Shown: positions 15,951 to 50,500 of the stretch, piece after piece
Layout: each line of letters begins with the position of its first letter
How positions within the stretch are numbered: the first letter of the stretch is position 1
Source: Bolinopsis microptera
Taxonomy: Eukaryota > Ctenophora > Tentaculata > Lobata > Bolinopsidae
DNA length: 60,000 bases
Direction of reading: 5' to 3'
Assembly: GCF_026151205.1 (NCBI RefSeq)
Contig: NC_087074.1
Span: 6,636,001-6,696,000 of the forward strand
Position numbers and translations under genes: made by a program
The notes under the pieces: generated by a model
Told to the model about the DNA's origin: nothing
Database searches by the model: none
What the model saw: the letters and a program-made list of their open reading frames with translations, nothing else

Positions 15951-16213
15951 ATTTTGGTGATCAATAACTAGCTCTCTAATTCAAAACGAGAAATCACAAA
16001 TTAAACAACAAATTTTTAAATCTAAAGCTGACAGCTATTAGCGCAAACATTAAAATCCGAATCAAAACAATAAGAACTGGTGCACTATCAAATAGGAGCT
16101 ACGAAAAATGAAACAATTAACCAAAAACATGAACAAAATCACGTCCCTAAATCTTAACCATAGTTTGAGACGTTAAAACGTCGTAAAACTTAATCGGGAT
16201 CAGTGAAGGTACT

Positions 16214-16612
16214 CTAGAAAAGTTGGGCAGCGATGGGCACAAGTGCAAGAAGGGCCATCTGCATTGATGTGGCACCACTATCGTCGTCACCTTCTTCTTC
16301 ATCACCTTCTTCTTCATCACCTTCTACTTCATCACCTTCTACTTCATCACCTTCTACATCTTCACCTTCTACGACAACTCCATCATCTGTGTTGTTTTAA
16401 GTCATACAATTTTTTACCAGGCCAAACAGCAATAAAATACTTAAGGTTCAATGTTTAAATTAATAAATAAATTCTACAATTTGTAATTTCTTGACTATAA
16501 TATCTCAAAACTTTTTTATTTTATATATCAAAAAGAAGATGTTTGAATCCTTACCTTGACAGTTTATAACAGCGAGCATACCGAAGAGGGCGAGTAAAAT
16601 TAACAGCTTCAT
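16214..16612 (-). CDS. Secreted, very acidic, probably GPI-anchored 76-residue protein, copy A (2 exons)
   Basis: Minus-strand exon 1 is 16555-16612 and exon 2 is 16214-16386, joined by GTAAGG...ACACAG. The first residues, MKLLILLALFGMLAVINC, are a typical signal peptide. The mature part is built from EGDEV/EGDEE pentads (about six, encoded by a 15 bp repeat such as GAAGGTGATGAAGTA), then DDDSGATS, then a hydrophobic C-terminal tail ALLALVPIAAQLF without following charged residues, the pattern of a GPI-attachment signal. A TATAAATA lies 72 bp upstream of the ATG (16684-16691). The copy at 25511-25910 gives the identical protein. No family is recognised. Signal, splice sites and tail support a real gene; expression and the GPI anchor are inference. 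Confidence 0.72.
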
Positions 16613-16683
16613 GATGAAAATTTGGGGAAAACTTTGCTAAAATAAAGTTGTGATTATTAATCTTAACTTGAGCGATTATGTAT

Positions 16684-16691
16684 TATTTATA
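16684..16691 (-). promoter_or_regulatory. Candidate TATA box of acidic-protein gene A
   Basis: TATAAATA on the minus strand, 72 bp before the start codon; conserved in position and sequence at 25982-25989 in copy B. Confidence 0.4.
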
Positions 16692-17857
16692 ATTACCACT
16701 AAGAATAACAGATCATCCTAACGATTAGGCCATGTTCACACTGCACATACTAAGTTATTCTAAAATAAAGATTGGGCGACTTATGTCCGATCACAGCGAC
16801 TCTTGTCTGAATCCGAAATTAGGGTTTTCGTACAAGAGTCCTAAGTGGCGACTGTTGTCCAAATTTCGGATCACATTTGTATTTATCTTGTGACGTTGCG
16901 TTCAACTTCACTGTCCCGATGCGGACGTGATCCTTTGCTTACTAATATCGCGACGAAAGCGTCCATTGAGATCGGACTAAAGTCGTGTTACCCAAAATTA
17001 ATACGATTTGGTCCACTGTACAGTACGTACACCAGCAGAATTATAAATTTTAGTTCAGAGGTCCAAAACTCCAATCAAATAAACATTTAGGCCAAACTTG
17101 AAAAATGTGACTCTGATTGGGCGATGATGGCTGGGTTTAATGTGTTTCAGTAGAAAATGAAAAGATACTAAGAATTAATACAACAATCGATAGAAACTGC
17201 TGGCGAGTTAACATTAAAAGTTGACACTTGACGAATTAATTAAAAAACGAATAGAAGGATAGTCGATACCAAGCCAGGTAATTCCACCTCTGCTAAAAAA
17301 GAACTGAATAAGACAGCAGTGCAGAGGTAGGTTTTATAAGAGCTCATCTCAGCAATGCATGCTAAAGTGAAACTGATTCTTGGTCAAGCTCTCTCCGTGC
17401 ATGCCAGAACGAACAGTCAATAGCCGTGCTCCCGCCCCGTTACAGCAAGATGCGGCTTAGCTAGTTAGCTATCAAACTTTACTTTCTCTTTGTCGAGCAG
17501 TAATATCATGTTTAACAGCTGCGGTCACTACATGTTTTGTCCGATCCTCTGAATGGTGGATAAGAACTTTCACGATTTCCAATGCTTGCATGCTAATTCT
17601 AGTGGTCAAAACTTTCTCCAACAATTTATTCTAAAGCAGCGTTTTCATGAATAATACAACTGACTACAATAATTCACATTGCATGCTTATCCTTGTGAAC
17701 TGAAAGTGAAAGAGATAGTATATTTTAGAATTCCTTTTTTACAGAGCAACTCTGTTGTTAATTATTTAAATAGGTAGGTTTGTACTACTACTCGAAAGCT
17801 GCTTGCTAAAATTGAAACTTCAATGATGAAAGGCGATGATGGATGATCGATTCTGTT

Positions 17858-18638: not shown

Positions 18639-18955
18639 AGGGAGGGAGGGAGGGAGGGAGGGAGGGAGGGAGGGAGGGAGGGAGGGAGGGAGGGAGGGAG
18701 GGAGGGAGGGAGGGAGGGAGGGAGGGAGGGAGGGAGGGAGGGAGGGAGGGAGGGAGGGAGGGAGGGAGGGAGGGAGGGAGGGAGGGAGGGAGGGAGGGAG
18801 GGAGGGAGGGAGGGAGGGAGGGAGGGAGGGAGGGAGGGAGGGAGGGAGGGAGGGAGGGAGGGAGGGAGGGAGGGAGGGAGGGAGGGAGGGAGGGAGGGAG
18901 GGAGGGAGGGAGGGAGGGAGGGAGGGAGGGAGGGAGGGAGGGAGGGAGGGAGGGG
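18639..18955. repeat. (GGGA)n microsatellite, about 79 units
   Basis: An almost uninterrupted run of GGGA on the plus strand. The proline-serine-leucine ORFs on the opposite strand are translations of this repeat. Likely G-quadruplex-forming; true length may be uncertain in the assembly. Confidence 0.97.
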
Positions 18956-25118: not shown

Positions 25119-27049
25119 TCTAAAAAATTGTTTAACCTTGACAGTATACACTTGATAGTATACACTTGATCCTTAGTAAATTCATCTAGACAGTGCTCTT
25201 CAGCATTCCCCAGATAAATGATCGATTGTTTCCTTAGCTTCGATATTTTGGTGATCAATACTCTCTAATGCAAAAGGAGAAATCACAAATTAAACAACAA
25301 TTTTGTTTTTATCTAAAGCTGTCAGCTATTAGTATTAGCGCAAACATTAAAATCCGAATCAAAACAATAAGAACTGGTGCACTATCAAATAGGAGCTACG
25401 AAAAATGAAACAATTAACCAAAAACATGAACAAAATCACGTCCCTAAATCTTAACCATAGTTTGAGACGTTAAAACGTCGTAAAACTTAATCGGGATCAG
25501 TGAAGGTACTCTAGAAAAGTTGGGCAGCGATGGGCACAAGTGCAAGAAGGGCCATCTGCATTGATGTGGCACCACTATCGTCGTCACCTTCTTCTTCATC
25601 ACCTTCTTCTTCATCACCTTCTACTTCATCACCTTCTACTTCATCACCTTCTACATCTTCACCTTCTACGACAACTCCATCATCTGTGTTGTTTTAAGTT
25701 ATACAATTTTTTACCAGGCCAAACAGCAATAAAATACTTAAGGTTCAATATTTAAATTAATAAATAAATTCTACAATTTGTAATTTCTTGACTATAATAT
25801 CTCAAAACTTTTTTTATTTTATATATCAAAAAGAAGATGTTTGAATCCTTACCTTGACAGTTTATAACAGCGAGCATACCGAAGAGGGCGAGTAAAATTA
25901 ACAGCTTCATGATGAAAATTTGGGGAAAACTTTGCTAAAATAAAGTTGTGATTATTAATCTAAACTTGAGCGATTATGTATTATTTATAATTACCACTAA
26001 GAATAACAGATCATCCTAACGATTAGGCCATGTTCACACTGCACATACTAAGTTATTCCAAAATAAAGATTGGGCGACTTTTGTCCGATCACAGCGACTC
26101 TTGTCTGAATCCGAAATTAGGGTTTTCGTACAAAAATCCTAAGTGGCGACTGTTGTCCAAATTTCGGATCATATTTGTATTTATCTTGTGACGTTGCGTT
26201 CAACTTCACTGTCCCGATGCGGGCGTGATCCTTTGCTTACTAATATCGCGACGAAAGCGTCCATTGAGATCGGACTTAAGTCGTGTTACCCAAAATTAAT
26301 CCGATTTGGTCTCCGATTGGACGATGATGGCTGGGTTTAAAGTATTTCAGTAGAGAAATAAAAGATACTAAGAATAAATACAACAATCGATAGAAACTGC
26401 TGGCGAGTTAACATTAAAAGTTGACACTTGACGAATTAATTAAAAAAGAATAGAAGGATAGTCGATACCAAGCCAGGTAATTCCACCTCTGCTAAAAAAG
26501 AACTGAATAAGACAGCAGTGCAGAGATAGGTTTTATAAGAGCTCATCTCAGCAATGCATGCTAAAGTGAAACTGATTCTTGGTCCAGCTCTCTCCGTGCA
26601 TGCCAGAACGAACAGTCAATAGCCGTGCTCCCGCCCCGTTACAGCAAGATGCGGCTTAGCTACCAAACTTTACTTTCTCCTTGTCGAGCAGTAATATTAT
26701 GTTTAACAGCGGTTACTACATGTCGTGTCCTCTGAACGGTGGATAAGAACTTTCACGATTTCCAATGCTTGCATGCAAATGCTATATTGAATTTTAGCGG
26801 TGAAAACTTTCTCCAACAATTTATTCTAAAGCAGCGTTTTTATGAATAATACAGCTGACCACAATAATTCACATACATAGCATTCTTATCCTTGCGAACT
26901 GAAAGTGAAAGGGATAGTATATTTTAGAATTCCTTTTTTACAGAGCAACTCTGTTGTGAATAATTTGAATAGGTAAGTTTGTACTCGAAATGCGAAAGCT
27001 GCTTGCTAAAATTGAAACTTCAAGGATGAAAGGCGATGAAAGATTCTGT
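25119..27049. repeat. Segmental duplication, copy B
   Basis: Partner of 15217-17857, lacking the 601 bp hAT-like insertion and so holding its empty target site near 25245-25256. Carries the second acidic-protein gene. Between copies A and B lie the RNase H remnant, the GGGA repeat and the LINE fragments. Confidence 0.9.
25511..25910 (-). CDS. Secreted, very acidic, probably GPI-anchored 76-residue protein, copy B (2 exons)
   Basis: Exon 1 is 25853-25910 and exon 2 is 25511-25683. The coding bases equal those of copy A, while the surrounding duplicated DNA has accumulated substitutions and indels (for example in the intron and the upstream region). The protein has the same signal peptide, EGDEV-type acidic repeat and hydrophobic tail. 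The candidate TATA box is at 25982-25989. The pair is either recently duplicated with chance sparing of 231 coding bases, or held by selection or gene conversion. No family recognised. Confidence 0.72.
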
Positions 27050-32529: not shown

Positions 32530-35500
32530 CTGGTGGTGTTTAGTGTAACGAGTCAATTCTAAAGGGGGCACCATTGGTTTTGGCAGGTTGCATATTTAAA
32601 TTTTTAAATAAATAACTAAATACATTTTTAAAATATCTCGATAAGATAATCGGCAATAATTGGATCTATAAATCGTCATCGGTTTATTGCGATAATTAGG
32701 TACAGATGAAATTAAACACAAATTCGTTGGACTAAAACTGCTGCACAACCTAGTGGTGTTAAACTTTGAGTAAATATTTTATTCTCAATTCACATGTAAA
32801 ACAAGTAAAAATGTTTTATTGAAAATTGATTTTGAGAGAAAGATTTCGTCATAATAATAATCAACTTGACTCAGCAGAGACTTTGGATACATCGAAGCTC
32901 AGTACCCAGGAATCCTTACTGGCTAGGGCCTATCTCCAAAAGTAAAAGAGATAAAGACTTTCGGTTTTTTGCAAAATGTTCGTCTCGTAAAAATAACGTT
33001 TTCCCCAGGGTGAAAATTTGGGACTATTTAGATTTTGAGTAACCCCAAAAAGTCGTATTTTTTTTGGGCCGATTACAAGTTCGCAATTTTCACTTTGCAG
33101 ATTCCTGTCCTCTGGAACAGGATGGAATGGAGTGACGCCCCCCGCTAGCAGAATGGCAGTTGTAACAGACGTGCTCGCTAGAAGTCTACCTTTGCTCACC
33201 TTACTTCTCCTTATGCCGATGTCTTCGACTTTGAACATTTCAAGTTGGAACCTCAATGGTATTAAAGGTAACATTCTTAGGAGAGAACATTTAGTAAGTG
33301 ACGCTAAACGTTATCATTTTGATGTAGTGTGTCTCCAAGAGACAAAATGCCGAGACTTCGAGGAAACAATTATTGACGGTCACAAACTTGTAACACTAGC
33401 CCAATCAGACAATTGGTATCATTATGGTCTCGGTTTCCTAATCTGCCCAGCCCTTGTACCTTCTATTGTTGCATGGAGATCACTTAGTAACAGAGTGGCT
33501 TTCATTGATATAAGACTCACAGAACACAACGGATCTCATCGTATGACCAGGATCGTTAACGTGTACGGACCAACCAAGAAGATTGTCGATGATGACATCA
33601 GTAGGGTCACAGGTAACTCCCCATTGTTACAATCATATTTCAATGATCTGAAAACTGCTATCAATATCCCAGCTCGATTCGATTTGTTTGTTGCTGGAGA
33701 TTTTAACGCCCGCCTTGGGAGATGCAGTAGGAAAGAGTATGATGCTGGCCTTAATAATCATATTGGTCAGTTCGGTAATGGTCTGAGAAACAGGAACGGT
33801 GAGTTCCTACTGGACTTTATTGTTGATAATGGTCTGTTTGCGTGCAATACTGCGTTCCAACACAGAGCGAAGCATATTACCACCTGGAAGGCTAGATGTG
33901 TTCCCAAGGGTAGACCCAAGGGTTCAAAAGACACTGTGAACTATTTTAAACAAATTGATTATATTTTATGTCGTACTAACTTTAAAGTCTGTTTAACAGA
34001 CTCCCGCTCTTTTTGCGGTGATTTTGTGAAATCTGACCATAAACCTGTGGTCGCACGTTTTAAACTTGGTTGTGAATACATTGTACATAAGCGGCCTAGG
34101 TCTGACAAAATAAGGTTTGATGTCAATCGCCTTAATGATTCTGATATTAAGTCTAAATTTTTTGATTCCTTTAAAAGTAATATTGATTGTAGAGTTTTAA
34201 CTAATAATGCTATTTCTGAAAATTCTGATATATTTGGTATATTGAGTAAATGTGCCGTCCAGGTGGTTGGTAAAGTGCCCCCGGGGAAGCCTCATCAGTA
34301 CAGCGATGATCCAACTGTCGTTAAACTTTCAGCAGAGAGAAAGTCCCTTCAGCAAGAATGTAGTCTCACAGGGATAAGCGACAGGAGTGACCTCAGAAAA
34401 AGAATCAACCATCTCAAACGTACCATCAAAAAGAGGTTGAAATCCATCAACGAGGCCACTGCTAACGCCCTAGTAGATGTCATCAACAACACCGACAGCT
34501 GCAGAAGCATGTTTGAAGCGAATAGAACTTTGGCCCAGTGTAGGATGAAGAAAGACGGAGTGACTGTCCATGATGCAGACGGGAACACCTTAGGTTCTGA
34601 CTCATTAAAAGCAGAAGCTATTAAAGAATACTTTAATAATGAGTTCAATGACAAAGATGAACCCCACCTCCCAGCATTCATTGACCCTCCTGGAAGCCTC
34701 CTCTGTCCCATAACACCTGAAGAAGTTGGCCGTGCTGTTATGAAGCTGAAATCCGGTAGAGCGTGTGGCCCTGACGGTATACCTAATGAGCTAATGAAAG
34801 CTGCTGGATATCCCCTCCACTGTGAGTTGGCTAGGATCTACAATCTCTCCTTTGAGACCAACACATACATCCCAGGTATCCTGACACCCCTTCAGAAGCC
34901 AGGAAAACCCCGAGGTCCGATAAAGTCTATCCGGCCCCTCACATTGCTAAATGGAACTAGAAAAGTCCTATCCCTCGTAGCCTTGAACAGAATCAATTAC
35001 CACGTTGATATGTACACTGGACCTTGGCAGGCGGCATACAAGCAGGGTCGCAGTTGTGCTGACCTGGTATGGTCTCAGAGAATGTTGACATCAGTGGTTA
35101 CCAGGCGCGAGTTTGAGTATAGTAAAATCAACATTGACATGACCGCTGCGTTTAATACTATCCGCAGACAGACCATCATCAACCTCCTCATTGATGCAGG
35201 ATGCTCTAGAGACGACATTCGCCTAGTTCAGTACCTCCTCTCAAATACAAAGCTCAAGGTGACGGTCAACAGATCTGAGTCTGGTGAATTTGTGATTAAT
35301 ATTGGCGCTTACCAGGGAGACAGTCTGGCAGGTAAAGTGTTTACATTGACCCTTGCCGGTGCCCTGAATCACATCAGAGCCGTGATCAGTGTCACGATTC
35401 CTAGACCGAACCCCCCAGTCTCTGATAGAGGCCTCCCGTTAGAGTCCGCCTATGCTGACGATGCTGAGCTTCTGAGTGAAGATGGTCAGAGCCTGGTGAA

Positions 35501-38500
35501 GATACTGGAGATTGCCAGTGATATACTAAAGGATTGGAGTCTCTTTGTTAACGAATCAAAGACGGTGTTTACAAGAGTGTATTTGGCAGATACAGATGCT
35601 TTAGATGCCCATGGCAATAAAATTAGAGGAGATGAAGAGTGGCGAGAGTCAGTGCTATTAGGATCAAAGCTCTGTTCAGAAAGAGATATTGTCAACAGAC
35701 GCAACAAAGCCAATGTTGCCTTCTACACCTACAAGAAAGTCTGGTTGAATAGTTCTGTTCAGATCAGTGAGAGTAGAAAGCTGAAGCTGTACGAAGCTCT
35801 TGTCACTTCAGTGTTGTTGTATAACTGTAGCAGCTGGGCTGCACCTGAAACCGTAATGGCATCTGTCGACGTTCTTCAAAGGAAGCATCTGAGACAGATA
35901 ATCAACACCTATTGGCCTACGGTTATCAGTAACGAGAATTTATATAAGAGATGTAATGTCCGACCCCTTACTGAAAGGATCAAGAAAGCAAGATGGAAAA
36001 TGCTTGGGCACGTTCTCAGAAGCGGTGATGACACTCCCGCCTTCTTATCTTTCAGATTTGCATGTTTAGGATGTTTTGACTACAAAGGAAGGAGGGGCAG
36101 ACCTCGTTCAAATTTATTTGATTTATTATTAAAAGACATTATGACAAAACAAATTATTGTGATTGTAAATAAAAGATTTAGTTTAATTAATTTCAACGAT
36201 TTAGTGTACAAAGCTCATGATAGACGTCTATGGAGAAGCTATGGGTGAGTCGAGACTACTCGGCCACTCGATTTTATGATTTAATTTCTATTATCTTGTG
36301 TTTGCTGTATATAGTTGATTAATAATGTCCTCTGATTGGCTGAATTGTGTCACATGAAGCTTGGAATGTGTTAAGCGTGCAATTAGTAAACTTAAGCGTG
36401 CAACTCGCTGTGAAGATGCGATCACCTCTAGTAACACACTCATCCAGTAAGGTTTGCTGGGTACTTACCCAGAGGATCTCCTGAAGTCGCAACTAAAAGA
36501 GGCAGAGCTAGTGAACAGCAGGTCCCTGGTGTAGAGGTGATGAGCCGTGCAGCACATGTCATATGACGCCGCGCAACACGTGCCATATGACTCAGCTCCA
36601 CTTCTGCAATAATTCATAGCTGCAGATACTGGTTCAGGGCCCTGTTTCAACAGTAACTTCGTCATCAGCTGGGGGATAACTTATTACCTGTCATTCATAA
36701 TAGTACTGTCGAATAATGTCTCGTCATGAAGGAGAGACGTTATCAATCAACATAAATATACAACTTATAATGTCCATTGTTAAATCTTCAAAATGAGAGA
36801 TACTACATTTGTTCCAAGTCATAAGTCTCTAAAACAGCAAGTGTCATATGACGCCGCTCAAACCTGCTGAAAGAGGAACCAGATAGTAGAAAAGAGACTA
36901 GAGATCCTGGGGGAGCTACCGGTAGGATTGTAACGACTACAGAGCTCATCTGTACATCTCTCTTTGCATTTGTCTAACGTGTGCCGTCTGCAGAGGGGGT
37001 GAGATGTATTTTAAATAGTGAGTTCAAATAGAGACTATATAGTGAGTCATAGTAAAGTTTAAAGGAGGGGAGGGGAGAGGAAGAGGGAGGGGGAGGTTAG
37101 GAGAGAGAGAGAGAGAGAGAGTATTACTTGTAAAATGAAGTAGAGCCTGGAAGTGAACTGATAGTTCAAGTTGTGGCTGATTGGTAATCGTTGCAACATA
37201 TTATATGTATAGTATTATGTACTAAGTAAATTCCTAAGGACAAGTTACAAACTTGTAAATGCCACGTTCAACAAGTGCTTCCATCATGACAGGTTGGATC
37301 TGCCCGAAGAACACGTGGTCCCTGTAGCTGTAACTCATGTTGTCATGGTGATTAGAACTCTCCAGGAACTCAGCAATACTCTTCAGTTGTATCTCGCTGT
37401 CTTCCTGTAAATTACTCAGTTAATGGTTTGTTGAAGAACAAGTTCGACGACTTAGCACTTAGAGTTGTGGTCAAGGTTAGGGTTAAGGATTGAGGCTGAG
37501 TAAGATGAACCTAGTTCCTTTTGCCAGAACATACGTAAAAAGCCTATGTCACTTGACGAGCAATTCAGTAAGCGCTCTTTGGTATGCTCACCTGCGTAAG
37601 CACGAATACAACGAAACCATGCTCATCCAGAGCGTAGAGAGCGTCTTGTGGGGAGTTAAGGGCGTTGGTGAGGTGGTAACCCCACAGAGAGTTCTGAAGG
37701 ACGGAGTGGGAGATCTGATAGGTCAACATCCCCGCCACCCTCCTCTGATCCTGGTAATGTAGTGTTACAGACTGCAGAGGCAACATTCAACTATTTAAGT
37801 GCGGTGGGTGCGTAATGGCAAATATTTGCAATATCAGTTCTTAAGGACTGATATTTCCCTCACTTTTCCCCACGATTAGGAACTTCCCGAAAAATTGGTC
37901 GCAATTGTAACCAACGACCCATGGCCATCGCCACCGAATATTCGATTTCACAACAAAAGTAGCCTGAAATCCTCCTTTGTTTGCTCCTCTGTTTGCTCCT
38001 CCTTTGTTTGCTCTCCTCTGTTTGCTCCTCCTTTGTTTGCTCTCATCACAGTACTTTCTGACTTTTTCTCTTCTCCAGTTTTTTACTCGCCCGTGATTTA
38101 TTTTCAATTTCATTCTAGTAAGCAAACGTTCTTAAGCTGATTATTCTTCCATTGTGTTGATGCTAACTGTGCTAAACCATGTATCAAGATATGCTCATGC
38201 AAAGTGTGTTTATTGTTTATATAAGCTGTAAGCAGTTGTATCACTGTTTCAGTATATATTATCTTAGACAATAATCTCAGAATGTGTGTGTGCCTGTCTA
38301 TGTGTCTGTGCGCGTGTAATTTCCGAGCGGCTTAATCAAGAAAACGGTAAGAGTTACGGGGCTGATTTTTTCGGTATAGTGCCGACAAAACTATAAGGAA
38401 GCCAAATGATAAAGGTTTTTTAAATCGGCCGGTGCATCATGGTAAGTGGTTTAATTGATGGTTTTGTACCACAAATGTGACATAAAATGGCTCACATTTT

Positions 38501-41500
38501 CTCCCTTCTCGCTCTCTCTCCCATTACTGCATATTATGTAGCGTTGGTACATATATCATAATTAGGTTAACCTCGATATATACTGTCATGTAATACTGTA
38601 AGCTTATAAGGGGAGGGAGCAATCATTGCGGTCTGTTTGTTTAATTTCATACGACAATGTAATGCATGTTTTTAAATATAATAGGCGGGTGTGGTGCGGG
38701 GTTAATAAGGGTTACTTTCACTTTCAGGGGTGTAGGAATGATTTTCTTCATGAGGTGGCCAAAACCCTAACCCTAACCCTAACCCTAACCCTAACCCTAA
38801 CCCTAACCCTAACGTGTAAAATCCGGATTGGAGTATTATTTATGAGTCGCATTGTTGTAATGTATTCTGTGTAAAATTATCTTTATCCCGGTTGTTGCGA
38901 CAAGTCGCAACAACCGGGATAAAGATAATTTTACACAGAATACACCTAACCCTAACCCTAACCCTAACCCTAACCCTAACCCTAACCCTAACCCTAACCC
39001 TAACCCTAACCCTAACCCTAACCCTAACTCTAACCGTATAAAGGCCGTATAGAGGCCATAGATTAGATGTTTTGAGTGGCCGTTTAGAGGCCGTATAAAG
39101 GCCATGTAATATATCTTTTAAGTGGCCGTATAGTGGCCGTATAGAGGCCGTATAGTGGCCGTATAGAGGCCGTATAGAGGCCGTATAGTGACCATATTGA
39201 TATACTTATAGAGGACGTATAGTGGCCGTATAAAAGCCGTATAGTGGCCGTGTAGGGGCCATATACTGATATAGTGGCCGTATAAAGGCCATATAGAGGC
39301 CGTATAGAGGCCGTATAGAGGCCGTATAGAGGCCGTATAGAGGCCGTATAGAGGCCGTATAGTGGCCGTATAGAGGCCAAACCTAATCGCCCATTTTCCC
39401 TCCTTATGAGTATTGCTGAAAGCACGGTGTAAGGCCTACACGGACCGCCTCTAACTAGCCAATCCCTGTTTACATGCCGTGTAGCAGGGGACTAGAAAGA
39501 TATATTATAACACAATAGTCTAATGCAAAATGCGATGAGAAAAAAACAGCAACGCTGTCGCTCGCCAATCATTCTCTGACTCTAATTTAATGCCCGCCTC
39601 GAGCTGAGAGGAACTTTAACTTTAAGCCGTTTTCTGCGCATATTTAAACTTTGAGCTGTTTTCCACACATATTTGATTTTGCGAAAACGTAACGTTCAGC
39701 AACCAGCAAATCAAGGAATTTATGTAATTTGAAAACATCTAAAAAATGCTAATTTAATAATCTTCCCATCCAAGTGGCATTTCTCTTGCCTCTGATATAA
39801 AAGAAAAACTTGTAAAAGGAGTGCCCTCCGCTCCATTGTCCATGCCAAAGACCGTTCGATTCAGAGCCATACTTTCTGGCCCAGAGAGAAGCTCATAATT
39901 ATTGTTTTGTATAATGACTGCCGAGCGTTAGTCGCTTACAATAAACAATAACTATTCACACCTTACACAGCGGGCAAGTATTCTAAAAAACAATAGGTCA
40001 ACTCAATGTGTGAATTTTATAGATTCTTTCACTAAGTGGTTGGATAGTGTCCTACTCGGGCTACCGGACCGCCCTGGCCAATTACCTGTTTATAAATCGA
40101 CGCGGCATACAACTGTTACTGTTGTAACAACACGCGCGATCATTTGCGAAAGACTAAAGGGTACCTAATGTTTAGCAACCGGCAAATCTTAAATTTCTGT
40201 GTTGTTGGTCAGGTAGGAGTATTCTCCTACTTACGGGTCTGTGTTGTTGGTCAGGTACGGGTATCCTCCTACTTATGGATCTGTGTTGTTGGTCAGGTAG
40301 GGGTATCCTCCTACTTACGGGTCTGTGTTGTTGGTCAGGTAGGGGTATCCTCCTACTTACGGGTCTGTGTTGTTGGTCAGGTAGGGGTATCCTCCTACTT
40401 ACGGGTCTGTGTTGTTGGTCAGGTAGGGGTATCCTCCTACTTACGGGTCTGTGTTGTTGGTCAGGTAGGGGTATCCTCCTACTTACTGGTCTGTGTTGTT
40501 GGTCAGGTACGGGTATCCTCCTACTTATGGATCTGTGTTGTTGGTCAGGTAGGGGTATTCTCCTACTTACGGGTCTGTGTTGTTGGTCAGGTAGGGGTAT
40601 CCTCCTACTTACGGGTCTGTGTTGTTGGTCAGGTAGGGGTATCCTCCTACTTACGGGTCTGTGTTGTTGGTCAGGTAGGGGTATCCTCCTACTTACTGGT
40701 CTTTGTTGTTGGTCAGGTACGGGTATCCTCCTACTTACGGGTCTGTGTTGTTGGTCAGGTAGGGGTATCCTCCTACTTACGGGTCTGTGTTGTTGGTCAG
40801 GTAGGGGTATCCTCCTACTTACGGGTCTGTGTTGTTGGTCAGGTACGGGTATCCTCCTACTTACGGGTCTGTGTTGTTGGTCAGGTAGGGGTATCCTCCT
40901 ACTTACGGGTCTGTGTTGTTGGTCAGGTACGGGTATCCTCCTACTTACGGGTCTGTGTTGTTGGTCAGGTAGGGGTATCCTCCTACTTACGGGTCTGTGT
41001 TGTTGGTCAGGTAGGGGTATCCTCCTACTTACGGGTCTGTGTTGTTGGTCAGGTAGTGGTATCCTCCTACTTACTGGTCTGTGTTGTTGGTCAGGTACGG
41101 GTATCCTCCAACTTACGGGTCTGTGTTGTTGGTCAGGTAGGGGTATCCTCCTACTTACGGGTCTGTGTTGTTGGTCAGGTAGGGGTATTCTCCTACTTAC
41201 GGGTCTGTGTTGTTGGTCAGGTAGGGGTATTCTCCTACTTACGGGTCTGTGTTGTTGGTCAGGTAGGGGTATCCTCCTACTTACGGGTCTGTGTTGTTGG
41301 TCAGGTAGGGGTATCCTCCTACTTACGGGTCTGTGTTGTTGGTCAGGTAGGGGTATCCTCCTACTTACTGGTCTGTGTTGTTGGTCAGGTACGGGTATCC
41401 TCCTACTTATGGATCTGTGTTGTTGGTCAGGTAGGGGTATCCTCCTACTTACGGGTCTGTGTTGTTGGTCAGGTAGGGGTATTCTCCTACTTACGGGTCT

Positions 41501-44500
41501 GTGTTGTTGGTCAGGTAGGGGTATCCTCCTACTTACGGGTCTGTGTTGTTGGTCAGGTAGGGGTATCCTCCTACTTACGGGTCTGTGTTGTTGGTCAGGT
41601 AGGGGTATCCTCCTACTTATGGATCTGTGTTGTTGGTCAGGTAGGGGTATCCTCCTACTTACGGGTCTGTGTTGTTGGTCAGGTAGGGGTATTCTCCTAC
41701 TTACGGGTCTGTGTTGTTGGTCAGGTAGGGGTATCCTCCTACTTACGGGTCTGTGTTGTTGGTCAGGTAGGAGTATTCTCCTACTTACGGGTCTGTGTTG
41801 TTGGTCAGGTAGGAGTATTATCCTACTTACGGGTCTGTGTTGTTGGTCAGGTAGGGGTATTCTCCTACTTACGGGTCTGTGTTGTTGGTCAGGTAGGGGT
41901 ATCCTCCTACTTACGGGTCTGTGTTGTTGGTCAGGTAGTGGTATCCTCCTACTTACTGGTCTGTGTTGTTGGTCAGGTACGGGTATCCTCCAACTTACGG
42001 GTCTGTGTTGTTGGTCAGGTAGGGGTATCCTCCTACTTACGGGTCTGTGTTGTTGGTCAGGTAGGGGTATTCTCCTACTTACGGGTCTGTGTTGTTGGTC
42101 AGGTAGGGGTATTCTCCTACTTACGGGTCTGTGTTGTTGGTCAGGTAGGGGTATCCTCCTACTGACGGGTCTGTGTTGTTGGTCAGGTAGGGGTATCCTC
42201 CTAGTTACGGGTCTGTGTTGTTGGTCAGGTAGTGGTATCCTCCTACTTATGGATCTGTGTTGTTGGTCAGGTAGGGGTATCCTCCTACTTACGGGTCTGT
42301 GTTGTTGGTCAGGTAGGGGTATTCTCCTACTTACGGGTCTGTGTTGTTGGTCAGGTAGGGGTATCCTCCTACTTACGGGTCTGTGTTGTTGGTCAGGTAG
42401 GAGTATTCTCCTACTTACGGGTCTGTGTTGTTGGTCAGGTAGGAGTATTATCCTACTTACGGGTCTGTGTTGTTGGTCAGGTAGGGGTATTCTCCTACTT
42501 ACGGGTCTGTGTTGTTGGTCAGGTAGGGGTATCCTCCTACTTACGGGTCTGTGTTGTTGGTCAGGTAGTGGTATCCTCCTACTTACTGGTCTGTGTTGTT
42601 GGTCAGGTACGGGTATCCTCCAACTTACGGGTCTGTGTTGTTGGTCAGGTAGGGGTATCCTCCTACTTACGGGTCTGTGTTGTTGGTCAGGTAGGGGTAT
42701 TCTCCTACTTACGGGTCTGTGTTGTTGGTCAGGTAGGGGTATCCTCCTACTTACGAGTCTGTGTTGTTGGTCAGGTAAGAGTTTTATCCTACTGACGGGT
42801 CTGTATTGTTGGTCAGGTAGGGGTATCCTCCTACTTACGGGTCTGTGTTGTTGGTCAGGTAGGGGTATCCTCCTACTTACGGGTCTGTGTTGTTGGTCAG
42901 GTAGGGGTATCCTCCTACTTACGGGTCTGTGTTGTTGGTCAGGTAGGGGTATTCTCTTACTTACGGGTCTGTGTTGTTGGTCAGGTAGGGGTATTCTCCT
43001 ACTTACGGGTCTGTGTTGTTGGTCAGGTAGGGGTATCCTCCTACTTACGAGTTACGGGTCTGTGTTGTTGGTCAGGTAGGGGTATCCTCCTACTTACGGG
43101 TCTGTGTTGTTGGTCAGGTAGGGGTATTCTCCTACTTACGGGTCTGTGTTGTTGGTCAGGTAGGGGTATCCTCCTACTTACGAGTTACGGGTCTGTGTTG
43201 TTGGTCAGGTAGGGGTATTCTCCTACTTACGGGTCTGTGTTGTTGGTCAGGTAGGGGTATTCTCCTACTTACGGGTCTGTGTTGTTGGTCAGGTAGGGGT
43301 ATCCTCCTACTTACGGGTCTGTGTTGTTGGTCAGGTAGGGGTATTCTCCTACTTACGGGTCTGTGTTGTTGGTCAGGAAGGGGTATTCTCCTACTAATTA
43401 CGGGTCTGTGTTGTTGGTCAGGTAGGGGTATTCTCCTACTTACGGGTCTGTGTTGTTGGTCAGGTAGGAGTATTCTCCTACTTATGGATCTGTGTTGTTG
43501 GTCAGGTAGGGGTATCCTCCTACTTACGGGTCTGTGTTGTTGGTCAGGAAGGGGTATTCTCCTACTTACGGGTCTGTGTTGTTGGTCAGGTAGGGGTATC
43601 CTCCTACTTACGGGTCTGTGTTGTTGGTCAGGTAGGGGTATCCTCCTACTTACGGGTCTGTGTTGTTGGTCAGGTAGGGGTATCCTCCTACTTACGGGTC
43701 TGTGTTGTTGGTCAGGTAGGGGTATTCTCCTACTTACGGGTCTGTGTTGTTGGTCAGGTAGGGGTATTCTCTTACTTACGGGTCTGTGTTGTTGGTCAGG
43801 TAGGGGTATTCTCCTACTTACGGGTCTGTGTTGTTGGTCAGGTAGGGGTATCCTCCTACTTACGAGTTACGGGTCTGTGTTGTTGGTCAGGTAGGGGTAT
43901 CCTCCTACTTACGAGTCTGTGTTGTTGGTCAGGTAAGAGTATTATCCTACTGACGGGTCTGTATTGTTGGTCAGGTAGGGGTATCCTCCTACTTACGGGT
44001 CTGTGTTTTTGGTCAGGAAGGGGTATTCTCCTACTTACGGGTCTGTGTTGTTGGTCAGGTAGGGGTATCCTCCTACTTACGGGTCTGTGTTGTTGGTCAG
44101 GTAGGGGTATCCTCCTACTTACGGGTCTGTGTTGTTGGTCAGGTAGGGGTATCCTCCTACTTACGGATCTGTGTTGTTGGTCAGGTAGGGGTATCCTCCT
44201 ACTTACGGGTCTGTGTTGTTGGTCAGGTAAGAGTATTATCCTACTGACGGGTCTGTATTGTTGGTCAGGTAGGAGTATTATCCTACTTACGGGTCTGTGT
44301 TGTTGGTCAGGTAGGGGTATCCTCCTACTTACGGGTCTGTGTTGTTGGTCAGGTAGGGGTATTCTTCTACTTACGGGTCTGTGTTGTTGGTCAGGTAGGG
44401 GTATCCTCCTACTTACGGGTCTGTGTTGTTGGTCAGGTAGGAGTATTCTCCTACTTACGGGTCTGTGTTGTTGGTCAGGTAGGGGTATCCTCCTACTTAC

Positions 44501-47500
44501 GGGTCTGTGTTGTTGGTCAGGTAGGGGTATCCTCCTACTTACGGGTCTGTGTTGTTGGTCAGGTAGGGGTATCCTCCTACTCAGATTGAACAGCAGAGTC
44601 CCCTCATCCGAGGAGTAGGAGGGGAGTGAGAGGTATAACACTTCCACCGGATCCGAGGAGGTCATCTTTACAAACTGGTGTTCCTCCTGCACGTCTGTTG
44701 TTTCTCGCGGGTTTCCCGTCCTGAGGGAAGGTTATATAGACAGTTAAGTTTTACTATTTATTAATTATTAAAGCATTAACAGTTATATTAACAGTTAAGT
44801 TATATTTACTGTTTTACAGTTTTGTTTGATGGTTGTCTGGGAACTTACTTGTTTAAATGTTTAATTTTCCTTGGCGCCCAGGAATATAATCAGAGGTAAA
44901 GTAATATAATATAACGTACTACATCATGGAAACTTTTCATTGAAGAATAACGAGTATCATCAACCTGTCGATGTGAATTTGGGACTAAAATAAACGTAGT
45001 GGCGAGAGGTTGATAGTAATTCTGGTTTATCGATTTAAGTTCTCGTAGAAAGTTATAACGTTTAAAATATACAGTGCATTCCATTTGCAGCATATGTTCC
45101 GGAGGCCTTGTTGTTCTACGGGTTCTTATTCGCTATGTGTCTAGCTACAAATATCTCCCAAATTACAAGGGCAACTCTCTAATCTAAAGTATTTAGGGGG
45201 TTTGTTTGGTAACCGGGGCTTCTTGACATTTTATTTGAATTCTCAGTGAGATATTTTTTTTGTAATTTTAGAAATGCAACTCTTAATAATAGTTTAGCGG
45301 CGGGAAATTCTTAGATTTTTGTATTTCCGTTGAGTTTTATTACACAATTTTGGGAATTTTCTTTATTCAAACATTTCAAGTTACGTCAAAATGAGCGACC
45401 TAATTTCATTAATTACACACTCATTAACCGGCATGACAGATATTGATGATCCTGAAATCGCTCCTCATTAGTAATAGAAAATACCAGCACGCTGCATAAG
45501 ATACATAATTGAAAAGAACAATAAAGAGCGATCGTTTGTCGGAATTTGATGACTACCGTATTAATCATAAATTCCGGTATTTGCTGATGTTTGAAAAATG
45601 CAGTTTCAGATAAGAAGGATTATTGGAAGTGGAATGTTGTCACTAGTGCAGTAAGAGCGTTTAATTTAGACGGCTTAGCTCATTTTCAAAGTATTTTATA
45701 TACATATGTGTATTGTGTATCCTCAGTTTCTCAGGGCTTCAGGGCAAACGTTTGTGTTGGAAAAAGTTACTTATTATTTCATGGCCGTCATTTAGAGTAT
45801 ACGCTTTTCATTTGACCCTCTATGACTCTAATATTAATAATGATAACTGACCTTCTTAATTCCTATGTTCAGCCAAACGTTGAGAGTTAATTGTAGTAAT
45901 ATATAAGGCAGCACACACTGTTACCTTTCCTAACACTCCATATATAAAGAGTTGCACCTGTGACTCATAAATAACCAATAAGTACTTATGAAATTATCCC
46001 GCCCCAAGCTGGCTACAGAGCAATAGTTAGAGATTTGAGACACAATTATTATATGTTCCATGGTAACTGGTAACTGGTATCATGGTAACTGGTAACTGGT
46101 ACCATGGTAACTGGTAACTGGTACCATGGGGTGCTGTTGTTATTTTTCAAAATAGTAGAATCCACCTCATGAATTCATCTTATTAAGAGGGCCTATTATC
46201 AAAGCTATGTAAAATTTAGTCTTTCACAATCAGTCTCGTCTCTGCATTTTTCTCGTTGCACGATTCGGCTTGCTATTGATAAACGCTTAACTATCGTTTG
46301 ATAACCATGGCAACTGGTAACCATGGTAATTAATTGTAACCATGGTCATTTTCGTTTGCCATTACACATTAATCTTATCGTATTACAATTTGTAATCATT
46401 AGAAAGTGTGTACAAAACATAGCACGAGGTTGCATGATTTTGGACTTGAGAGGAATACATCAAGCCAGTGTAAATAATTAAATAGCGCTTCGTTAGTCAT
46501 TCGAAGAGTGAAATTGGTTAGGAAATGGATGCTTCCTCTAGTCACACCAATATTATGTGAATATCCAATATCCAATACCCGATGTAAATAATAGAAAGGA
46601 TGCTTTCTACATCCTCAGCCTTCACAGTCTGACTGACATTGATTAATTTTCGAATTGATTGGCACTTTCTCTCTAGCTGTAGATTCACAATATTATCCCG
46701 GTGAAATTAATCGTACAATCCTATCAGCCGACCACTTCACAATTCCGGGCCAGCTTGAAAATTATCATCCCGCCCATCATTAGTCTCCTCAGTTTAAACC
46801 AGGCATGAAATTAAAATCATACGGAATTCCAAACGCTGATGGTTAAGAAATGGGGTGGTCTGATGGTGAAGGTTGGAGTTAGTCCACCAGACACCATTCT
46901 CCCACTCGACCCAGGAAATGGGCCGGATTGCCAGCTAGTTAGTGACGATGACCTGCCTGTTAGTAGTAGTAGTAGCCAATCTCCGGCAGGTAATGATATT
47001 AGCTGGGCCGGTGTTTGCCGTTACGTCTGCTACCCACTCTAATTAATATAACCCTGGATACGCAGGAGCTTGTCGTTGCTATGACAACTTGTTGCTATGA
47101 CGACAGTTAATGCTTTACCTGCACGAGGGGAAGTCTCGTAGGAAAATGGTAAACATGGTAATTTTATGCCACTTTTAACACTGCAGTATTCGTTTAGAGT
47201 TGGTCTGCCTTTGTTCAGAGATGTTTATTGTTTAAATAACTACATTAATTAATTTTTAAAACATTATAAGACAATGCAGGATGAAGTTCCAAGACAATTA
47301 GCAGTGATATGTAACAGAAAAGTTTCGAAGGAGCAGCTAAAAATTGCCAGTAATTGTCATAATAGACTCAATTTCGCCTCCGGACGCGGAGTTCGCAGTG
47401 TAATCCATTCTATTGACTGGAGGGCCACACTCCATGAAGGAATAAATGAATTGTTTTCTATATTTTTTATTTTGGCACGGAAAATAGCCTCTTTTGTGCT

Positions 47501-50500
47501 ATAACACTGTTAGTAACGCCGATACTTGCATTGCTAACTGCTGAGGCAAACGAGACTCTCTCTCTCTCTCTCTCTCTCAGCTGGCTGTGTTAAAAGTAGA
47601 GTAGGAGTTGTGGGAGGGGGTGGGTGAGTTTACGTCATTTCACCATTGTGGGAGGGGGTGGGTGAGTTTACGTCATTTCACCATTGTGGGAGGGGGTGGT
47701 TGAGTTTACGTCATTTCACCATTGTGGGAGGGTGAGTTTACGTAATTTCAACATTGTGGGAGGGGGTAGTTGAGTTAACGTCATTTACGTACTTTTTGGT
47801 ACGTTTTGGTGAGTTTGGCAGGGCGTGCTCAGGACAACTGCATCGAGTGCGTCCTCCTCCAGCTCAGCATTGAGTTATCGTTTGTCGGAGTGTATCCCGG
47901 AACCGGTGGTGTGTCTGGGTACTGTTCCATAAATCTGCCTAGACCAACTTTGAAACTGTCTAGCAATGTGATACTCCGGAGCTCCGATGGGAGCACGTTG
48001 AAGAGCTGAGCTGCTCTAACTCTAAAGCTGTTGTCGTAATCTGTTCTTACCGACAACTGTGCGTTTTTGTTCATGGCTGGGATCTCTGCCTTAATACCAT
48101 GCCTTTGATGAGACTTGAACTCGAAGCCCGTATCGTTCGGAGCATGTTCATTAAGAATTTTCCATACATGAATAATAGAATAACGCTCTCTCCGCCTCTG
48201 AAGGGACATCAACTTAAGCTTCTTCAGCCTGTCCCAGTACTGGAGATCACGGCAGCCAGATATCTTTCTAGTAAAGGATCTCTGTACAGTCTCCAGCTTT
48301 TGTATCTCTGTGACTTTTGTAGGGTTCCAGACTGGACAGCAGTACTCTAGCTTGGAGCGAACCATGCTTTTGTATAAAGTCAGCATGACTACTTGTGACC
48401 GGTCTCTAAAGGCACTCAATGTCCAAGCCGCCATTTTTCTAGCTCCTTGAACTGTCTTCTCAATGTGAGGACACCATGACCTACTGCTGCTAACATACAC
48501 TCCAAGGTCTCTGACAGTTTCCTGTGGTGATATTGCGTGTCCTTTTGGTGTAGTATACTCAACAGTCTCTGGGTAGAACGGGAGCTCTCTTAGAGCTTTT
48601 GATCCATTCAGGGGGTAGTTTACAACCTCAAACTTCTGTTCGTGTAGCTCCATGTTGTTAACACGTGACCACTCGATGACTATGTTGAGATCATCTTGCA
48701 GTAACTCCACACTACTCATTCCTCGGATAGCCCCAATCAACTTTGTGTCGTCTGCAAAGCTGAATCCGTTACTATAGCTAATGCTGTTCAACAGATCGTT
48801 GATGTACAGGATAAATAGGATCGGTCCTAGGACTGTCCCTTGTGGCACCCCACTTGCCACTGGCTGGAAGGATGATTTGCGACCTTCAACAACGACTGTT
48901 TGTTTTCTGTTTAGCAAAAACTCTTTGATCCACCTTAAAGCCTGACCACCAATTCCGTATCGACCAAGCTTGGCTAGCAGCACTGCATGGTCGACCTTGT
49001 CAAAAGCTTTGGCAAAGTCGAGGTAAATCACATCAACTTCTTCATCATTGTTGAGTGATTTGTAGATCTGTTCGATGTGACTGAGAAGCTGCGTCATGCA
49101 ACTCCTCTTTTTTCTGAACCCATGCTGGTTCGCATTGATCGTCATATTCTCTTCCAAATGACGAACCAGGTTTTTTCTGATTACACGCTCAAATGTCTTT
49201 ATGATGTGCGAGGTTAAAGACACTGGTCTATAGTTTGCTGGGTCCGTTCTGTCCCCCTTCTTATAGATAGGGGTGATATATTGGGTCTTTAATTCCGCTG
49301 GTATATACCCACTGCTGAACGATTCCTGCCAGAGGAGTGTTAGCGGGTCTGCAAGTTGTTCTTTGCAGGCTGTGAGTATCCTAGCAGGAATCTCCCCGTC
49401 AGGTGCGGCCGAATAGGGATCCAGTTCTCCTAATGCTTCAATGATATCTTTTCTTGTGAAGCTTAGCTCGTTGAATCCGGAATCCAGTCCCTGAGGTAAT
49501 CCTTGGCTCTTCATACATTCATCAATATCGGCACTCATAGGGTTACTAAATACCTTCTGGTACTGCTTCTGAAGTAACTCTGCCTTGATGCTGGGGTCGT
49601 CCACTAATGCCCCAGTCTCATCTCTCAACACCGGGATCGTAGATCTGGTCTTCTGGAGACGCTTGGCATACGAAAAGAAGTATTTGGGGTTCTTCTTTCA
49701 CCATTGTGGGAGGGGGTGGTTGAGTTTACGTCATTTCACCATTGTGGGAGGGGGTGGGTGAGTTTACGTCATTTCACCATTGTGGGAGGGGGTGGTTGAG
49801 TTAACGTCATTTTACCATTGTGGGAGGGTGAGTTTACGTAATTTCACCATTGTGGGAGGGGGTGGTTGAGTTAACGTCATTTCACCATTGTGGGAGGGGG
49901 TGGTTTAGTTTACGTCATTTCACCATTGTGGGAGGGGGTGGGTGAGTTTACGTCATTTCATCAGTGACATTCTTTTGTTAGCCATTCTCGTCATGAATGA
50001 TTAGAATAAGAGGTTCTGGTGTCAAATCACGGACAAAACACCATGAATATGATAAAGGGACGAATTTTCCCTTTAGATGAATTTCACCATTTGTCGCCAT
50101 GATTTTATGCCATCCGCGGTTAAACATTAGCACGGAGAGTGTTAGAGCGAGGGCTGTCTATTAAAGTATCTATTAAAGTACGGACTGTATGGTTCATTGA
50201 TATACTATAAAGCTATAATACTGTTCCCTCTCTAGTGCACTGTTTTGGGTACACGATATAGGGTGCCGAGTGTGATGTGTAACACAATGCCTTGACGTCT
50301 AGATAACACACAGCTTTGTGCGCAGGCTTGCCCGCCTTGGTTCTAGTGATCGACGTTGACCAAAATAACACCGGCGGCGGCGTGAAATTAATGTCAAGTG
50401 CAGTTAACTTCATCGACAGATCCTGCTGGTGTAGCGAACCACCTTAGTTTCGCTATTCAGTAAAAACAACACAACAAAAGTTTTTGGAGCAGAATAAATG

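Follow-up and report, generated by a model that had tools for sequence, protein, structure and literature searches.

A splice-junction minisatellite of about 100 copies in an alpha2delta-like gene of Bolinopsis microptera

The analyzed window, a stretch of 60,000 nucleotides from the genome of Bolinopsis microptera, contains a 42-bp minisatellite in an alpha2delta-like gene; its unit corresponds to the end of a probable exon together with the adjoining 5' splice site (Table 1). This array was probably born by tandem duplication across the 5' splice junction of the exon, with the first donor being the one mostly used. Beyond the original donor, every new copy would add another exon end and donor to the intron; with the first donor in use, mRNA and protein would stay unchanged and the whole array would be removed with the intron, which is 6.8 kb long. 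Junction arrays would be tolerated and could grow because splicing at the first donor leaves mRNA and protein unchanged, and several such arrays are present in the same genome. If donors 2 to 17 were used now and then, in-frame isoforms with added 14-residue blocks would result, which are expected to be a minor by-product at most.

Table 1. Features of the array and the surrounding gene (positions in the window; a slash marks a splice junction)
Feature	Position	Strand	Remarks
Probable exon, alpha2delta-like gene	44543..44720	-	Last 39 nt are the first array unit
First 5' splice site CCC/GTAAGT	44537..44542	-	Phase 0
Stretch open in the frame of the exon	43856..44731	-	17 unit ends; closes after the 49-bp unit GTAACTCGTAAGT
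42-bp minisatellite	40196..44581	-	103.9 copies; each unit holds the final 13 exon codons and the intron start, with about one GTAAGT
Second, unrelated minisatellite GGCCGTATAGA	39034..39378		Same intron as the 42-bp array; found by TRF
Next exon	37592..37750	-	Phase 0 acceptor 37751-37752; donor CAG/GTGAGC
Following exon	37237..37404	-	Possibly homologous to the C-terminal part of alpha2delta-like paralogs

Structure and origin of the array

The array was called by TRF with period 42, 103.9 copies, 94% matches, and a score of 7786, and an anchor count gave 104 units, in agreement with the about 100 tandem copies reported in an earlier note on this DNA. Spacing between anchors is exactly 42 in 99 of 103 cases, 49 in three, and 45 in one. 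The start of the array falls inside the probable exon, and the minus-strand unit reads ..CTGACCAACAACACAGACCC/GTAAGTAGGAGGATACCCCTAC. GTAAGT was found 91 times over the 104 units on this strand, 79 times inside CCCGTAAGT, and most units repeat the probable exon end followed by CCC/GTAAGT. The earlier description of the unit as an exon end plus a 5' splice site is thus supported. At the donor, G is kept at position +1 in 97 of the 104 units and T at position +2 in all of them.

Besides the consensus, 21 variant unit types were found, a 22nd being the truncated last unit. The variants are ordered along the array, units 15 apart matching more often than others (0.33 vs. ~0.22). Long near-identical arrays are generally error-prone and the copy number is an assembly value, which may thus be inflated or deflated; however, ordered variant types and a raised lag-15 match are features of real arrays, and we consider an assembly artefact highly unlikely.

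The 91 GTAAGT words within one long intron could also be regulatory, acting as many U1-binding sites that slow splicing, cause nuclear retention of the transcript, or prevent premature polyadenylation. Nevertheless, the donor columns (2.0 variant units per column) are hardly more conserved than the remaining unit (2.8), and arrays are also formed by other words of equal dinucleotides, which makes such a role very improbable. Selection on the donors was dropped on the same comparison, which gave no sign of it.

A 30-base piece of the unit, searched with up to three mismatches in the 264.65-Mb genome, gave 101 matches; the array itself holds 101, and all of the 100 matches listed are located in it. 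The unit is thus confined to one locus and the array probably arose in place, so that an origin elsewhere in the genome was rejected.

Host gene, exons, and splice sites

The host gene is alpha2delta-like as judged from its domains, which supports the assignment of the earlier note. The same strand carries a VWA_N match (C3:6725302-6725505; 38.6 bits against a cut-off of 34.7) with one internal TGA; an exon encoding DFSGSMDG was found at C3:6715461-6715553 (E 0.001). VWA_N followed by VWA with the MIDAS motif DxSxS is the arrangement of alpha2delta / VWA-Cache proteins. No match to VGCC_alpha2 (Pfam: PF08473) was found in this genome or in the control genomes. The following exon aligned with the paralogs in a pairwise hhalign comparison (E 0.001, just 22 columns, probability 21) and in HMMER (E 0.045).

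For the exon adjoining the array, hhalign against the paralogs aligned nothing, the alignment being confined to the following exon, and searches of PDB and Pfam with the exon peptides gave no match. Conservation of the first-unit peptide in the paralogs was considered and rejected: MAFFT sets SRRIPL against TQRVNV and TQKIIV, but HMMER and hhalign give no support, and the HMMER score of the exon set is 7.5 bits with the first-unit tail and 7.8 bits without it. An old coding origin of the first unit therefore lacks homology support, the paralog alignment over it being non-significant, and this counts against the explanation preferred here.

The exon had been placed at 44543-44686. Its 5' edge is probably 44720, since a pyrimidine tract is present at the acceptor CTTCCCTCAG/GACGGG and absent at GACGTGCAG/GAGGAA. 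The exon is probably coding, as suggested by its codon statistics (44582-44686 ranks within the top 2.9% when set against 1726 non-coding open windows), its frame, and its position. GC content is 0.52, whereas the 2-kb flanks have 0.35 and 0.41. Its lack of significant homology and the C at position -1 of its donor would fit a different reading, in which the array is an unrelated intronic minisatellite, 44543-44720 is no real exon, and the resemblance to an exon end with a donor is due to chance. Coding statistics, GC content, the match in phase 0 with the next exon, and the four similar junction arrays known from recognizable genes all argue against this reading, which we regard as improbable.

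Donors were scored with a simple consensus matrix. The first donor has C at positions -1 and -2 and a moderate score (2.7 bits); it is the best GT of its exon, with CCG/GTGGAA as the runner-up (0.1). The donor of the next exon scores higher (8.0). Both the C at -1 and this weakness relative to the next donor count against predominant use of the first donor. Six units with A at -1 score slightly better than the first donor (3.0 bits), so competition among donors is plausible. The next exon has a coding score of 0.222 per codon, and an in-frame alternative acceptor, CTCTGCAG, is located 21 nt upstream of its acceptor.

Reading frame along the array and comparison with IFI6

Ahead of a stop at 43856, 17 unit ends (44542 to 43870) all lie in phase 0, and the first donor would fit the phase 0 acceptor of the next exon, as had been claimed. 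Donors at these unit ends comprise 14 GTAAGT, 2 GTCAGT, and 1 GTAACT. The earlier estimate of about 17 more open units is corrected to 16 beyond the first, and a good donor is present in 13 of these.

An amplified exon-end donor of this kind is striking but not wholly new. The repeat of the human gene IFI6 (6-16, G1P3) is short, 12 nt. This minisatellite supplies multiple splice donors (Turri, Cuin and Porter, 1995, as cited in PMC4526556, PMC2572611, and PMC3618361), and two downstream repeat units serve as donors, giving three mRNA species, according to the account in PMC4526556. The statement that no such case had been described is thus superseded by this published minisatellite (as presented in PMC4526556) and also by three more exon-end arrays and one all-repeat intron in the same genome. 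The 42-bp array resembles IFI6 in being a minisatellite with repeated 5' splice sites at a probable exon end, in the presence of a consensus donor in almost all units, and in its frame, since a 42-nt unit keeps the frame and isoforms would differ by whole units. In contrast to IFI6, with its short repeat and reported donor use, the array has ~100 copies, belongs to another gene in another animal, and is known from DNA sequence.

These likenesses bear on the possibility of a true isoform generator, in which several donors are used and a loop of the alpha2delta-like protein is lengthened by 14-residue blocks, its length varying between individuals. The unit has a length of exactly 14 codons, and the frame stays open past 17 unit ends with 14 good phase 0 donors; the five paralogs lack 4 to 11 residues here, which in a weak alignment suggests a tolerant loop; and two downstream units act as donors in IFI6 (as given in PMC4526556). 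However, the frame is lost past the 17th unit, distinct variant alleles are even over the codon positions (9, 7, and 8), and three sister arrays described below are incapable of isoforms with the donors seen. Openness itself is a modest-chance event: the prior for an open unit of such length is roughly 7% (1/3 for a multiple of three times ~0.22), which is unremarkable for one array of four. A long open frame comes cheap along the array, two plus-strand frames being likewise open over thousands of bases, and the frame with its 14 phase 0 GTAAGT donors is within chance. We therefore consider an isoform generator unlikely, and a design for isoforms is not supported, given this prior and the broken frames of the sister arrays.

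Two further observations run counter to first-donor splicing of a neutral array. Of the four arrays, only this one has a long open frame, which would also be expected if isoforms were under selection. Third codon positions hold more variant units (56) than the other two positions (34 and 24), but a single column accounts for 36 of the 56.

Junction arrays elsewhere in the genome

Tandem AGGTAAGT was found at 1422 places in the genome, vs. 957, 361, and 603 for the three control words that match it in dinucleotide counts and in their ends. Against reversed words, GTAAGT appears 5-fold enriched (16876 vs. 3098 places) and AGGTAAGT more than 100-fold (1422 vs. 12). Such a huge enrichment of tandem donors was rejected, since the dinucleotide-identical words shrink the AGGTAAGT excess to 1.5- to 4-fold by places.

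Among the 100 places listed (C1, 0-14.1 Mb), seven AGGTAAGT arrays were found, and three of them start at an exon end. In a sushi-type gene (L049), the exon ends with ..CTKK and AAG/GTAAGT, the array has 43.9 copies of 54 bp, the acceptor is located 63 nt from the last donor, and the next exon encodes a Pfam Sushi domain. In an ADAM gene (L052/L064), ..EECDCGTEE/GTAAGT is followed by 44-bp units, and a Pfam Disintegrin match spans the junction formed at the first donor (E 8.2e-20). The third gene encodes a dynein heavy chain (L053; ..ESSVKQSDR/GTAAGT; PDB dynein match, E 5e-6). The remaining four include arrays at C1:36576 and 761375 with a common 32-bp unit, the flank of the first being without visible gene, an array at C1:3114174 with no recognizable exon in its flank, and one at C1:4181600, where the repeat continues through 1.08 kb of flank (L051, L056).

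Like the 42-bp array, the three sister arrays amplify an exon end and GTAAGT from the native donor onward. In all three, no further in-phase GTAAGT precedes a stop (donors in the stretches examined: 44, 4, and 4), and later donors, where seen, give a stop or a frameshift, whereas the 42-bp array has 13 more donors in frame. Such arrays thus need no isoform function.

Nine plus-strand GTAAGT arrays were found among the 100 places listed (C1, 0-2.6 Mb), and the upstream flank was read for all nine. One covers an intron of a CDK-like gene (L008), and another is a possible case (L059). A third (L062) starts in an ORF without Pfam match and could mark either an exon end or a stop codon. In the upstream flanks of the other six (L050, L057, L058, L060, L061, L063), nothing was recognizable by eye. 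In the CDK-like gene, a 41-bp array (2122-2413) covers the 286-nt intron (2120-2405), and the repeat unit includes the acceptor and the first bases of the exon.

Introns have been described to arise when exon segments containing AGGT are duplicated in tandem (Rogers, 1989; Hellsten, 2011; as treated in PMC4974935), with further cases in fission-yeast 24-bp repeats and potato RdRp, the latter duplication also crossing an intron-exon boundary (according to PMC4974935). As far as this account goes, the 42-bp array shares with these cases duplicated exon sequence with splice signals and, probably, copies hidden from the protein by splicing. It differs in multiplying the 5' splice site itself ~100 times, with no new intron shown. 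A duplicated segment with AGGT giving both splice sites was not found in it: AG/GT occurs in 0 of the GT contexts listed over exon and array, the donor being mostly CCC/GTAAGT. The all-repeat intron of the CDK-like gene is nearer to the Rogers model.

We tentatively suggest that 5' splice junctions are recurrent minisatellite seeds, that first-donor splicing hides arrays derived from coding sequence, that tens of genes or more (extrapolated from 3 in 14.1 Mb of C1) may carry duplicated donors, and that the few open units of a multiple of three may yield copy-number-variable isoform ladders. If splicing hides duplications that cross a donor, coding sequence could become a long, potentially variable array without cost. 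Junction arrays with open and broken units would offer a natural experiment on spliceosome choice among up to 100 near-identical donors, and they bear on how DNA copy number may give rise to new in-frame isoforms.

Ordinary minisatellites of this genome are similar to the 42-bp array in period, copy number, and variant pattern, whereas its unit differs by including a splice junction. They gave 30 rows in 237 kb of non-random sequence, one being counted twice where loci overlap.

Structure and origin of the window array

The earlier note described about 100 tandem copies of an exon end followed by GTAAGT, in agreement with the 103.9 copies and 91 GTAAGT found here (see table). On the minus strand the unit reads ...CTGACCAACAACACAGACCC|GTAAGTAGGAGGATACCCCTAC, and 79 of the 91 GTAAGT lie within CCCGTAAGT. 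The spacing of the 104 units is 42 bp in 99 of 103 cases, 49 bp in three and 45 bp in one. Beside the consensus, 21 variant unit types were found; these are ordered, with a match raised at lag 15, which fits block-wise growth of the array.

The donor columns are nearly as variable as the others, with 2.0 versus 2.8 variant units per column. The three codon positions carry similar numbers of distinct variant alleles (9, 7, and 8), and variant units number 56 at third positions versus 34 and 24 at the others, a single column giving 36 of the 56. Selection on the donors or on the peptide is not clearly evident.

Searching the 264.65-Mb genome with 30 bases of the unit, at most 3 mismatches allowed, gave 101 matches. 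Those listed, 100 in number, are all at this locus, and the array itself contains 101, so that every genome match is accounted for. A dispersed repeat as the source was therefore ruled out. In a simple reading of the sequence, the array would have arisen by duplication across the 5' splice junction of its own exon.

In the same intron, two TTAGGG arrays lie on either side of a perfect palindrome whose 41-nt arms are separated by 2 nt (38763-39035).

Features of the window, of contigs C1 and C3 of the same genome, and of loci (L numbers) from it
Feature	Position	Strand	Details
42-bp minisatellite	window 40196-44581	unit read on minus	103.9 copies, 94% matches
VWA_N exon	C3:6725302-6725505	gene's strand	38.6 bits, cut-off 34.7
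Exon with GTPNGV..DYYDPRERHWY		gene's strand	best E 0.011
MIDAS exon with DFSGSMDG		gene's strand	E 0.001
Sushi-type gene array	L049 4531-6927 = C1:428531-430927		exon end + AAG|GTAAGT, 54 bp x 43.9
ADAM disintegrin exon array	L052/L064, C1:14124300-14125380	minus	exon end + GAG|GTAAGT, 44 bp
Dynein heavy chain exon-end donor array	L053, C1:884900-885400		PDB dynein matches, best E 5e-6
CDK1/2-like gene, 41-bp array	L008 2122-2413 (C1:217492-217785 = 2120-2413)		covers 286-nt intron 2120-2405
Dispersed minisatellite, 32-bp unit AGGTAAGTACCTGAGTAAAGAGCGCTATCATG	C1:36576-37703 and C1:761375-762150		arrays at two distant places
36-bp GTAAGT array	L062, C1:2584450-2584900		starts at end of ~136-codon open reading frame

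Gene and exon beside the array

The gene had been called alpha2delta. The VWA_N exon, the GTPNGV exon, the MIDAS exon, additional weak hits against other VWA_N genes of the genome, and then the window exons follow in the correct order, all on one strand. Against these genes, the last window exon gave a pairwise E of 0.001, with a probability of only 21. The PF08473 profile had no match in the genome and none in the control genomes, and no significant homology of their own was found for the array-side exon and the exon at 37750. An alpha2delta-like label is fair, but not strong at the array end of the gene.

The first unit starts inside the open reading frame 43856-44731. The non-repeat part of this frame (44582-44686) is coding-like, with a mean codon log-odds of 0.20. 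Of 1726 open windows of 35 codons elsewhere in the window, 2.9% reach this value, as do 21% of the training-gene chunks. For the exon, previously placed at 44543-44686, the 5' edge is probably 44720 (CTTCCCTCAG|GACGGG) and not 44686. The proposed phase 0 join to the exon at 37750 fits in phase. By a simple consensus matrix, the first donor scores 2.7 bits and is the top GT of its exon (next GT, 0.1), and the donor of the following exon, at 8.0 bits, is far above it.

Junction arrays in other genes

No described case of an amplified splice donor was known to the earlier note; such a case is in fact published. In human IFI6 (6-16), a minisatellite supplies several donors (Turri 1995, via citing papers) and, according to PMC4526556, two downstream repeat units act as donors. 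Tandem duplications with splice signals are a known route to new introns (PMC4974935). No closer precedent was found among titles on junction minisatellites or in passages of PMC4526556, PMC2572611, PMC12783039, and PMC3618361. What is new is the gene, the scale of about 100 donors, and the fact that such arrays recur within a single genome, with open as well as broken units.

In the sushi-type gene, reading on past the first donor meets an in-frame stop, the last donor lies 63 nt from the acceptor, and the Pfam Sushi match belongs to the next exon. Joining from the first donor of the ADAM gene gives a Pfam Disintegrin match spanning the junction (E 8.2e-20). The unit in the CDK1/2-like gene includes the acceptor together with the beginning of the following exon; an alignment of the spliced product to CDK2 extends across 71 residues (E 6.6e-21). 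The dynein heavy chain exon also carries an in-frame internal duplication, with EVYRPL...FLPVF present twice.

Three successive AGGTAAGT with a spacing of 27-56 bp were found at 1422 places genome-wide, and three control words with equal dinucleotide counts and ends at 957, 361, and 603. Among the 100 places listed per word, on which all array counts rest, seven AGGTAAGT arrays span C1 to 14.1 Mb, versus 11, 12, and 10 control arrays, read off the lists, over ~61, 134 (including estimated sizes for two contigs), and 69 Mb. Donor-bearing arrays are therefore denser, roughly 4-fold on these small numbers. Three of the seven start at an exon end.

Among the nine GTAAGT arrays listed for the C1 plus strand between 0 and 2.6 Mb, the CDK-like one is the sole certain junction array, that of locus L059 is a possible one, and the 36-bp array of L062 may be another. 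The dispersed 32-bp unit carries a donor consensus, with no gene in the one flank examined. The open reading frame at the 36-bp array had no Pfam match, and the array start is either an exon end or a stop codon.

Donor use and other features of the window

Duplication across a donor would leave the exon and donor intact upstream, each added copy landing in the intron. A second in-phase GTAAGT before the stop is absent in all three sister exon-end arrays (sushi-type, ADAM, and dynein genes; the stretches analysed hold 44, 4, and 4 donors). Such arrays would thus be tolerable in working genes only with use of the first donor, and their broken frames show that isoform function is not needed for them. 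The same logic most likely applies to the window array. Its 14-codon open unit is unremarkable, since one-third of lengths are multiples of three and, in a given frame, a random donor-containing unit of 42 bp has a chance of ~22% of being open. Donor use here, all of which we infer, likely includes some use of donors 2-17, the later unit ends in frame, in line with the downstream units reported as donors in IFI6.

Elsewhere in the window, two long open frames were seen: a putative LINE-type endonuclease/reverse transcriptase-like one, judged by eye, at 33039-36248 (plus strand) and a putative reverse transcriptase-like one, also by eye, at 47829-49697 (minus strand). A repeated segment (15951-17839 and 25245-27039) shows identities of 97.1% (1072 aligned positions) and 91.2% (747), both copies carrying the same 15-bp TCACCTTCTACTTCA array. 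At 18639-18954, AGGG is repeated in 79 perfect copies.
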